DNA of 64,000 bases, taken from NCBI RefSeq assembly GCF_023336755.1, contig NZ_JALZWP010000008.1, positions 62,001 through 126,000 of the forward strand. Direction: 5' to 3'. Shown one piece after another: positions 38,522 to 41,364 of the stretch; positions within the stretch are counted from its first letter, which is position 1, and each line of letters begins with the position of its first letter. The notes under the pieces were generated by a model, which saw only the letters and a list, made by a program, of their open reading frames with translations, was not told the origin of the DNA and did no database searches. The stretch comes from Roseinatronobacter domitianus (lineage in GTDB: Bacteria > Pseudomonadota > Alphaproteobacteria > Rhodobacterales > Rhodobacteraceae). Both the position numbers and the translations under genes were made by a program.

Positions 38522-38553
38522 AAAAAAGGGGCGCCGGTAGGTGCCCCTTTTTT
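38522..38553. terminator. Bidirectional terminator after infB
   Basis: AAAAAA-GGGGCGCC-GGTA-GGTGCCCC-TTTTTT, a stem with one G-T pair and T-runs in both directions, between infB and the convergent haemoglobin gene. Confidence 0.93.
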
Positions 38554-38573: not shown

Positions 38574-38966
38574 TTATGTGCCGGGCGCGTTGACCAATCG
38601 TAGCGCCACCCGGCGCAATGTTGCGTTCAAGCGGTCAATTTCTGGTCCTGAATGACCGCAATCAGCAATGGCGCGGACCATGCATAACAGCCAGTTTTCG
38701 GCATCTTCCGCACGCACCGGCACATGGGCGTGAATCTCTTTCAGGTCCATATGCCCATGATGTTCTGCATAGTATCGCCGCCCGCCAAAGAACCCGCATA
38801 AAAAGGCGAATTGTTCGGTGCGGGCATTCGCCATGCCTTGCCCGCGCTCATGCAACAGGCGCAGATGCGCGCCCTCTGGCAAGGTCTCCATCAGGTCGTA
38901 AAACGCTTCGACCAAAGCGCGCACGGCCTCCTCGCCGCCCAACTGGTCTATCAGCGGTTTTTGCAT
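38574..38966 (-). CDS. Group II truncated haemoglobin
   Basis: A 130-aa 2/2 globin. It has the opening LIDQLGGEEAVRALVEAFYDLM, LLHERGQGMANARTEQFAFLCGFFGG, and the proximal histidine region YYAEHHGHMDLKEIHAHVPV. AENWLLCMVRAI is the G helix with Trp, typical of group II. Such proteins bind O2, NO or peroxide at haem. ATG 38966 is used because the preceding gene stops only 4 bases upstream, giving an operon with the DUF1989-GcvT fusion gene; its frame further upstream lies inside that gene. Confidence 0.88.
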   Translation of the reverse strand: MQKPLIDQLGGEEAVRALVEAFYDLMETLPEGAHLRLLHERGQGMANARTEQFAFLCGFFGGRRYYAEHHGHMDLKEIHAHVPVRAEDAENWLLCMVRAIADCGHSGPEIDRLNATLRRVALRLVNAPGT

Positions 38967-38970
38967 AGGC

Positions 38971-41340
38971 TTAGGACCGGGGCCGTTCCTTTTTCGGGTC
39001 GTAATGCGCAAATGGGACAATCCGCGCGGGCAGGCGTTTCTGATGCCCGTCCAGCTTGCCAATTTCCACCTCTGTCCCGATTTCGGCACAGGCCACATCC
39101 ACCCGTGCCAGCGCGATGGTTTTACCCAGTAGCGGCGAGCGCATGGCGGACGTCACCTCGCCGACCTGCGCGCGCCCGATATGGACGCAGTCGCCATGGC
39201 CCACCTCTGCATTGCTATCAATGTCCAGCCCCACCAGCTTGCGGGCCGGGTGTTCCTTGCGGCGGATCAGCGCGTCTCTGCCAATAAAGTCGTCAGTTTT
39301 GGATTTCAACGGCACGGTAAAGCCGATGCCCGCCTCAAAAGGGTCGGTCTGGTCGCTGAAATCATAGCCTGCAAAGATCAGCCCGGCCTCTATCCGAACC
39401 ATGTCCAACGCCTCTAGCCCGAAAGGGGTAAGGCCATGATCTTGGCCCGCCTCCCAGATCGCGTCGAACACGGCGGCACAGTCGCGGGGGTGGCACATCA
39501 CTTCGTAGCCCAGCTCGCCCGTGTAGCCGGTGCGTGACACGACAATCGGCACGCCATCTGGTCCGTGTAGCCGCGCGGGCGTAAAGCGAAACCAGTCCAA
39601 TTGGTCAAATGTCGGGCGGTGCGGAGCGGTCCAGACGACTTTGCGCAGCAGGTCGCGGCTTTCCGGCCCCTGCACCGCGACATTGTGCAACTGGTCCGTC
39701 GAAGACCGCACCAGCACGTTCAGCCCCGCCTTCTCGGCCTGCTCGCGGATCCATTCGCCGCCGTAATCGCTTCCGCCGATCCAGCGGAAATTGTCGCGCC
39801 CCAACCGGAACAGCGTTCCGTCGTCGATCATGCCACCATGCGGGTAGCACATTGCAGTATAGACAACCGCGCCTTCGGCCATGGTTTTCACGTTGCGGGT
39901 GAAAATGTAGTGGCACAGCGACTCTGCATCCGGGCCGGTAATCTCAAACTTGCGCAGCGGCGACAGGTCCATGATGACGGCTTTTTGCCGGCAGGCCCAA
40001 TATTCCTGAATGGTGCCCGCCGTGGCAAAGGAACTGGCCAACCAATAGCCGTTATATTCCACGAAATTACCAGTGAATTTCGCAAAACTGGCGTGGAAGC
40101 CGGTTTCTTTGGTCATCTTTGGCTCCGAATCTGGGGTGGCGCGGATCGCGATCGCGCGTTTGAAAGGTTCCGTGCCGCTATAGGTGCGCACATGAATGTC
40201 GGTCGGGTTCCAGCCATTGGCGGCGGTGGTGTCGTCGGGGCAGGCGGAACTGACGCAGACCAGATCGGTCAGTGCGCGCAGCAGCACATAGTCACCGGGG
40301 CGCGACCACGGCTCGTCGGTATAGAGCACGCCGTGGTCATCCAGCCCGGTGTTGAAGAAGAAGTTGATCGCCATCCAGCCGGGGCGCGGATCGGCGCCGA
40401 ACCCGGCCAGCGCGCCGTTGAAATTGTCGGTGCAGTTCACATGGCCGGGATAGCCGATATCGTCATAGTATTTTGCGGCGCAGGCCATGGCAAAAGCATC
40501 GTGCCGCCCGCAGGTGTCTTGGATCACCTCGACCAGCGGGGTCATGTCCTGATCGTAGTATTTCGCGTGCAGGCCCGGCATGGGGTAGGCGTGCCCCATC
40601 AGCGTGCGGGTGGTTGTCACGTCCAGCGGGCGTTGCAGGCCGCGATCCAGCTTGCGCGCATCGAAACACTGGAAGTCGGTGCATTGGCGGCCATCGACAT
40701 CAAGGATTTGGATGAAGTCACCCGCCTTGACGAAATAAGCTTCTGCCGTCGTGGAGTGCACGCGGATATCGGCCAGCGGATCTGCCAGCGGGTCGGGCAG
40801 ATCGAACCCGGCGCGCGGGCGCAGCTTGGCGCGGGTAATCAGAATTGCCAGCGGGGTAAGCGTGTCTTGCGCATGCGGCGACATCGCATTTCCCGGTGCG
40901 GCAATCAGCAGATGCGCGTCGCGGGTGGCGGTAAACTCTTCCGAGACACCGGCCTTGGTGGTGCTATCGAACAAGCGCAGGCTGGGGGCATGGGCAAGAT
41001 CTGCGCCCAACTGCGTCAGCTTTTGCCGCACACGGTGCAGCGATGCCGCGTCCGAGGACAGAACCGCACGTATCCCCTCTGTCTGCGCATTTGCGGGGGC
41101 ACCAAGCGCGCCTATGTCGCACTTCCCCTCTGCACCAACGGCCAGCAACTCCGCGGCTTGTCCGCCTTCCATGTTGCGGATATTCACCCGATCGCCCTGA
41201 TGAAGCTGCACTAGGATCGCGCCGCCACCTTCTACCTGGTAGCGTTCCACCCCGGCGGGCAAGGTCAGCCCTTGCGGCAGACGCACTGCGCTGGGCCGTG
41301 GCGCGCCGGGCGTGACCTTGGGGTAGCTGTCAAGCGGCAT
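38971..41340 (-). CDS. DUF1989 - GcvT-like aminomethyltransferase fusion
   Basis: A 789-aa two-module protein. Residues about 20-400 resemble the DUF1989/urea-carboxylase-associated family in two parts, the second with VKAGDFIQILDVDGRQCTDF, HAKYYDQDMTPLVEVIQDTCG and HVNCTDNFNGAL (several Cys and His). Residues about 415-785 are a GcvT/DMGDH-type folate-binding domain: FVEYNGYWLASSFATAGTIQ, FEITGPDAESL, RTGYTGELGYEVM and LDMVRIEAG. It likely moves a one-carbon or aminomethyl group to tetrahydrofolate, with the DUF1989 part releasing or binding a urea/amine-type substrate; the reaction is unknown. GGAGG eight bases before ATG 41340 sets the start. The truncated haemoglobin gene follows after 4 bases. 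Confidence 0.9.
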   Translation of the reverse strand: MPLDSYPKVTPGAPRPSAVRLPQGLTLPAGVERYQVEGGGAILVQLHQGDRVNIRNMEGGQAAELLAVGAEGKCDIGALGAPANAQTEGIRAVLSSDAASLHRVRQKLTQLGADLAHAPSLRLFDSTTKAGVSEEFTATRDAHLLIAAPGNAMSPHAQDTLTPLAILITRAKLRPRAGFDLPDPLADPLADIRVHSTTAEAYFVKAGDFIQILDVDGRQCTDFQCFDARKLDRGLQRPLDVTTTRTLMGHAYPMPGLHAKYYDQDMTPLVEVIQDTCGRHDAFAMACAAKYYDDIGYPGHVNCTDNFNGALAGFGADPRPGWMAINFFFNTGLDDHGVLYTDEPWSRPGDYVLLRALTDLVCVSSACPDDTTAANGWNPTDIHVRTYSGTEPFKRAIAIRATPDSEPKMTKETGFHASFAKFTGNFVEYNGYWLASSFATAGTIQEYWACRQKAVIMDLSPLRKFEITGPDAESLCHYIFTRNVKTMAEGAVVYTAMCYPHGGMIDDGTLFRLGRDNFRWIGGSDYGGEWIREQAEKAGLNVLVRSSTDQLHNVAVQGPESRDLLRKVVWTAPHRPTFDQLDWFRFTPARLHGPDGVPIVVSRTGYTGELGYEVMCHPRDCAAVFDAIWEAGQDHGLTPFGLEALDMVRIEAGLIFAGYDFSDQTDPFEAGIGFTVPLKSKTDDFIGRDALIRRKEHPARKLVGLDIDSNAEVGHGDCVHIGRAQVGEVTSAMRSPLLGKTIALARVDVACAEIGTEVEIGKLDGHQKRLPARIVPFAHYDPKKERPRS

Positions 41341-41364
41341 GGCCGCGTCCTCCATGAAAAGAAA

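Follow-up and report, generated by a model that had tools for sequence, protein, structure and literature searches.

In the alphaproteobacterium Roseinatronobacter domitianus, a small globin gene follows tdm, the predicted gene for trimethylamine N-oxide (TMAO) demethylase, within a 64,000-nucleotide stretch of contig NZ_JALZWP010000008.1 (positions 62,001 to 126,000; this whole stretch is called the window below). Across 394 genomes of the bacterial family, the globin tracks Dmm, the enzyme of dimethylamine oxidation, rather than Tdm, and is nearly always found in genomes that carry Dmm. We infer that it is probably an oxygen- or peroxide-handling accessory of aerobic methylamine demethylation that acts at the Dmm step. 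This role, taken jointly with the assignment of the gene pair as a tdm-globin operon of the aerobic trimethylamine (TMA)/TMAO degradation pathway, is the account toward which we lean, if by a small amount.

The tdm-globin gene pair

Both genes lie on the minus strand. The product of tdm (38971..41340) has 789 amino acids and begins with a stretch without a Pfam match, followed by a zinc DUF1989 domain (residues 194-361) and then by a GcvT domain (GCV_T, residues 420-674; GCV_T_C, residues 700-781). The globin gene (38574..38966) encodes 130 amino acids that match Pfam Bac_globin over residues 6-122. Only four bases (38967..38970, minus strand, by direct reading) separate the tdm stop from the globin ATG, and translational coupling across this gap is probable. 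An earlier, sequence-only reading had described a DUF1989-GcvT fusion and a group II truncated hemoglobin four bases apart, a description borne out by the open reading frames, the Pfam matches and the similarity of the globin to PDB entry 2xyk.

Against the NCBIfam equivalog NF053776 (TMAO demethylase; cut-off 1100 bits) the fusion scored 1223.1 bits over profile positions 5-762 of 763, and two PDB entries deposited as TMAO demethylase, 9q59 and 9q5a, matched its residues 5-789 with about 1190 bits. For Methylocella silvestris Tdm, the zinc cysteines C263, C279 and C343, the proposed iron-site residues H276, D198 and D346, and the GcvT-domain substitutions F487 and L618 have been published (PMC12560246). 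All eight of these key residues are kept in the window protein at a constant offset of +24, as C287, C303 and C367, as H300, D222 and D370, and as F511 and L642, the last two replacing two folate-contacting GcvT residues. The metal site had been expected in residues 200-310, which do contain four of its six known residues (D222, C287, H300 and C303), with C367 and D370 lying outside. The window protein and known Tdm (M. silvestris; Ruegeria pomeroyi SPO1562; PDB 9q59) share a near-full-length match, the same domains, the same zinc and iron residues and both GcvT-domain substitutions (M. silvestris numbering). Unlike known tdm, the window gene has a globin gene behind it and sits between cobD and infB, at a distance from the rest of the pathway.

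Judged by its sequence, the fusion is a TMAO demethylase, an enzyme already described and with solved structures. The undescribed breakdown, without a characterized pathway, that had been suggested for it is thereby withdrawn; the N-methyl substrate and the formaldehyde or one-carbon product had been foreseen correctly, and the urea-like or ureido compound was rejected on the equivalog score and the structures. An ordinary glycine-cleavage T-protein was also rejected, as the earlier reading had supposed, all three GcvT cut-offs being missed (TIGR00528, 204.5 bits against 235.85; NF001567, 243 against 300; NF010093, 144 against 459). A second Tdm in the genome was likewise rejected: a single protein passes the Tdm cut-off, and seven other matches are partial and far below it. 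Oxygen-independent Tdm was reportedly described by Zhu in 2016. Relatives of the window enzyme convert TMAO to dimethylamine and formaldehyde with no need for O2, and the same activity is predicted here. Because Tdm is active with or without oxygen (PMC12560246), the supply of O2 by the globin to Tdm itself, one of the roles considered in the sequence-only reading, was discarded; the link of the globin to methylamine chemistry that it had also implied proved real.

The same genome carries, on its contig C17, tmm (837 bits; cut-off 675), gmaS, mgs genes, dmmD, dmmA, dmmB, an HODM-like dmmC, an AraC regulator gene and mgd genes. With tmm, tdm, dmmDABC, gmaS, mgs and mgd all in one genome, the aerobic TMA/TMAO pathway is represented, including Tmm and Dmm as the steps on either side of Tdm; the mgs genes and mgdC/mgdD were assigned solely by comparison with clusters that had been named at other loci. 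The only other genome of the genus in the sample (G179) gave no Tdm, Bac_globin, DmmA or Tmm match at the thresholds used.

Co-occurrence of the globin family with Dmm

The best solved match of the window globin by sequence, and also the first by fold (TM-score 0.92), was the 2-on-2 hemoglobin of Agrobacterium tumefaciens (2xyk), which carries a group II title. The AlphaFold model of the globin (mean predicted local distance difference test score 95) has the group II 2-on-2 fold. Sequence identity to 2xyk is 33%; unlike the window family, 2xyk is two residues shorter before helix E and has Phe at the Gln E11 column of the sequence alignment. All 27 aligned family members share Tyr B10, Gln E11, His F8, His F10 and Trp G8 without exception, the proximal His F8 being H79 and Trp G8 being W92 in the window globin; the position names (B10, E11, F8, G8) follow mycobacterial trHbO. 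Binding of heme, O2 and nitric oxide (NO) is predicted from the group II assignment.

When a profile made from the matches of the window globin was applied, family members in the loci examined scored 180-212 bits, the next globin 29 bits and another 20 globin loci at most 30 bits. This places the window globin in a distinct family of group II truncated hemoglobins; the gap from 30 to 180 bits is valid for this sample and not for all bacteria, and outer relatives on plasmids, seen in five of the seven plasmid records opened, score 127-141 bits. Within the 394 genomes, a Bac_globin was found in at least 132 and this methylamine-cluster family in at least 29; the family profile was applied to the higher-scoring Bac_globins, and a few distant members may have escaped it. 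The window globin is the only Bac_globin found in its genome. Two members depart from the usual form. In G191, which carries Dmm, the globin gene behind tdm (L129 5949-7328) is split over two frames whose pieces score 111 and 90 bits, either a broken gene or a sequencing error; in G228, where no DmmA was found, the globin (L191 9346-9867) departs from the family at both ends.

Fisher tests were used to compare the 29 carriers with the whole sample. Tdm occurs in 28 carriers (99 genomes overall), DmmA in 27 (52 overall) and Tmm in 25 (81 overall); in G096 there is one weak DmmA match below the cut-off, which was not counted. Among the 99 Tdm genomes, the globin is present in 26 of the 49 with Dmm versus 2 of the 50 without (p 2e-8), and among the 90 that are at least 90% complete in 26 of 45 versus 1 of 45. 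No link to Tmm was found within the 99 Tdm genomes, where the globin occurs in 24 of 78 with Tmm versus 4 of 21 without (p 0.22). One Tdm clade of 35 members, with tmo transporter genes at 25 loci, has the globin in four of five Dmm genomes and in none of the 30 others. A Tdm tree of 98 of the 99 genomes requires a minimum of 15 changes for the globin and 9 for Dmm; over nine independent pairs differing in Dmm, the globin differed in the same way in 3.9, in the opposite way in 0.1 and not at all in 5.0 (averages). The trend between the globin and Dmm holds on the Tdm tree, though the tree test alone is not significant.

A second set, the best 80 of 238 genome-contig matches to the globin (named loci; partly overlapping with the 394 genomes), agreed: DmmA was found in 76 of these 80 carriers. 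Seventeen of them were checked for Tdm, of which 14 have it, and two of the three without it have DmmA. The two genes are also physically close, with 3-28 kb between globin and DmmA on one contig in 22 of the 27 DmmA carriers.

Gene neighborhoods of the globin and of tdm

The globin gene lies directly or nearly 3' of tdm, on the same strand, at 20 of 104 Tdm loci, the window included (18 direct pairs and two with one small gene between), and at one further Tdm locus it lies about 6 kb away; 104 of 106 Tdm places were used, the two left out being fragments of one Tdm gene in G390. Viewed from Tdm, the pairing is a minority state. From the side of the globin, 20 of the 29 carriers have it just behind tdm, and tdm is found 5' of it within 1.3 kb at 65 of the 80 named loci. 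The adjacency is more than chance because so many of the Tdm loci and of the named globin loci show it, and the pairing to which the sequence-only reading drew attention is thus far from rare among globin carriers. In six of the other nine carriers the globin gene neighbors gmaS, mgs, mgd or dmm genes, five of the six having dmm genes in the same stretch, and the remaining three (G010, G104 and G288) showed no methylamine neighbors beside the globin within the stretch examined. The pairing seems to extend beyond one bacterial family, since the named loci include records of Pseudaminobacter soli, Aurantimonas coralicida and Robiginitomaculum (the last two metagenome-assembled genomes).

Plasmids carry the arrangement as well. 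The globin matched 39 plasmid records, and seven of the 20 listed were opened. The methylamine cluster of Paracoccus aminophilus pAMI6, in which dmmDABC and a regulator gene precede tdm, resembles the window in having tdm followed by a family globin (195 bits, 10 bases on); the paper on this cluster names tdm and dmm, and the words 'globin' and 'hemoglobin' are absent from its main text (PMC4543880). A Ruegeria conchae plasmid globin (207 bits) sits beside gmaS-mgs and folD, with tdm not in the stretch examined. In Paracoccus sp. MA and Methylobacterium sp. DM1 the outer relatives form part of methylamine clusters, and the one in P. alcaliphilus follows tdm and amt; for those of an Aminobacter and a Paraburkholderia plasmid, the stretch examined showed no adjacent methylamine genes. 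The related globin of Aminobacter aminovorans pAA01 (L293 7959-8366) adjoins a gene for 5-formyltetrahydrofolate cyclo-ligase, and this species is the source of a purified dimethylamine monooxygenase (PMC5520151).

Five loci (L257, L268, L281, L283 and L297) have the usual surroundings (folD, MOFRL/HpcH or gmaS) and the globin with no tdm between, a pattern that would fit loss or relocation of tdm with the globin retained. Two families of small, apparently secreted proteins without a Pfam match, u23 (11 of 104 Tdm loci; e.g. L042 9246-9689) and u30 (8 of 104; e.g. L120 6321-6740), occur among the three genes after tdm or tdm-globin; the idea that they replace the globin in Dmm genomes was dropped, as both also co-occur with it. 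At 34 of 104 loci, the window locus not among them, a gene for an EamA-family permease, possibly an amine or osmolyte transporter, is divergent just 5' of tdm (e.g. L056 3465-4406).

In the window itself the pair is flanked by cobD on one side and infB on the other (contig C8), and the same cobD-tdm-globin-infB site recurs in Roseibaca ekhonensis, with infB 94% and Tdm 93% identical. A hairpin between the convergent globin and infB genes (38522..38553, no strand), identified by eye, is likely a two-way terminator, with a stem of eight pairs including one G-T, a loop of four and runs of A and T at its flanks. It is absent from the list produced by a consensus promoter/terminator scan, the output of which was at chance level. 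A likely ribosome-binding site, GGAGGA, was seen by eye 5' of the tdm ATG (41341..41360, minus strand), and the ATG at 41340 fits the start of the solved homologue found in the PDB search.

Possible roles of the globin

In the mechanism that we propose, Tdm would release dimethylamine, which Dmm, a putative heme-type enzyme using O2 and NADPH, would oxidize next, and the globin would serve the Dmm step and not Tdm itself. Its task would be to deal with the reactive ligands involved there, most likely by clearing the peroxide that uncoupled turnover leaves or by buffering O2, and co-expression with tdm would supply it just as dimethylamine appears.

The nearest studied protein is GlbO of Roseobacter denitrificans (RD1_4240), which like the window globin is of group II with Tyr B10, Gln E11, His F8 and Trp G8, and which, unlike the globin here, has been described as a nitrogen-metabolism/oxidative-stress globin (PMC4319818). 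Peroxidase activity of GlbO has been measured in vitro, with a kcat/Km of 3.1e4 per M per s at pH 8, and the glbO transcript rises moderately with peroxide (PMC4319818). The published glbO primers for quantitative PCR (PMC4319818) translate to DIMETD and HMNLRE, which match the FYD.METDP and GHMNLRE stretches of the family, and from these two peptides and the pocket residues GlbO looks like a family member. In Roseobacters, glbO is located in, or at, a gene cluster for glutamate synthase, glutamine synthetase, an amidotransferase and an ammonium transporter, a neighborhood that the authors assigned to nitrogen metabolism (PMC4319818). From that description of the locus, these neighbors can be re-read as mgs-gmaS-amt methylamine genes. 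The peroxidase data and the re-read cluster therefore favor the handling of peroxide or O2 for Dmm. A bolder version, in which the globin takes an active part in oxidizing dimethylamine, coupled to Dmm by consuming the peroxide of uncoupled turnover or by passing O2 or electrons, and may itself demethylate amines with peroxide, is put forward tentatively and seems to us rather unlikely.

Several observations weigh against assigning the globin to the Dmm step. That DmmC binds heme and Dmm is a heme enzyme is our presumption, suggested by the Pfam family name of DmmC. The globin is missing in 25 of the 52 Dmm-bearing genomes, and Dmm therefore works without it. Two carriers (G228 and G335) had no DmmA found and one (G086) no Tdm, and in the window genome the globin and the dmm genes lie on different contigs (C8 versus C17). 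Since the tree-aware pair test did not reach significance (median p 0.125 over nine pairs), the Fisher values may be inflated by common descent. The R. denitrificans globin was placed in the family from two primer peptides and its pocket residues, and this protein has Phe at CD1 (PMC4319818), a position not placed with certainty in the window globin. Finally, other group II globins have peroxidase activity too (PMC4319818), and in the cell the globin may do something else.

Storage or delivery of O2 to the two oxygenases of the pathway, Dmm and Tmm, is an improbable alternative. Both enzymes are monooxygenases, and the distal Tyr and Gln and Trp G8, invariant in all 27 aligned members, are in this fold consistent with tight O2 binding. 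However, group II globins are usually slow to release O2, and the globin is linked to Dmm, not to Tmm. Protection of the Dmm heme and the Tdm iron site from NO, in the manner of an NO dioxygenase, would be a classic globin role, and the reductase part of DmmB weakly resembles the flavohemoglobin reductase domain (82 bits; cut-off 432); NO detoxification was also proposed for the R. denitrificans globin by its authors (PMC4319818). We nevertheless consider this role doubtful, as NirK or NirS is present in 9 of 27 Dmm genomes with the globin versus 5 of 25 without (p 0.36), and neither is present in the window genome, though NO may come from outside. A link to the genome's own nitrite reductases was rejected because NirK/NirS do not separate Dmm genomes by the globin, which speaks, though not decisively, against a role versus self-made NO.

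The globin might instead be a general stress protein that hitchhikes within a mobile methylamine cluster with no tie to one step. The genes of the cluster do travel together, on plasmids included, nearly half of the Dmm genomes do without the globin, and the related Aminobacter and Paraburkholderia plasmid globins stand apart from methylamine genes in the stretch examined. Mere hitchhiking is nonetheless unlikely given that the globin recurs behind tdm in differently arranged clusters, follows dmm or gmaS where tdm sits elsewhere, and is missing in 48 of the 50 Tdm genomes without Dmm. That the fusion no longer acts on TMAO but on another N-methyl or ureido compound is hardly credible: its activity on TMAO is a prediction from sequence and its gene lies apart from the rest of the pathway in this genome, but it passes the equivalog cut-off with every published key residue kept and is the sole Tdm of a genome whose Tmm and Dmm provide the adjoining steps.

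Returning to the accessory role at the Dmm step, Tdm, the TMA pathway and group II globins are all known already, and the link of the globin to tdm and Dmm is apparently new in the literature searched. That search, from which subscription journals were mostly absent, gave no paper tying a globin to tdm or dmm, the nearest in print being PMC4319818. If the globin does take an active part in oxidizing dimethylamine, it would be, within that literature, the first globin assigned to methylamine catabolism. Methylated amines contribute to the pool of dissolved nitrogen in the sea, and the reaction that follows Tdm, dimethylamine oxidation, is termed a bottleneck in the title of one study (PMC5520151). 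A globin that accompanies the bottleneck enzyme across Alphaproteobacteria is a candidate accessory factor for this reaction, and it is open to knock-out in strains already in use for dmm genetics. The methylamine link would also give a physiological context to a peroxidase globin that has been studied biochemically.

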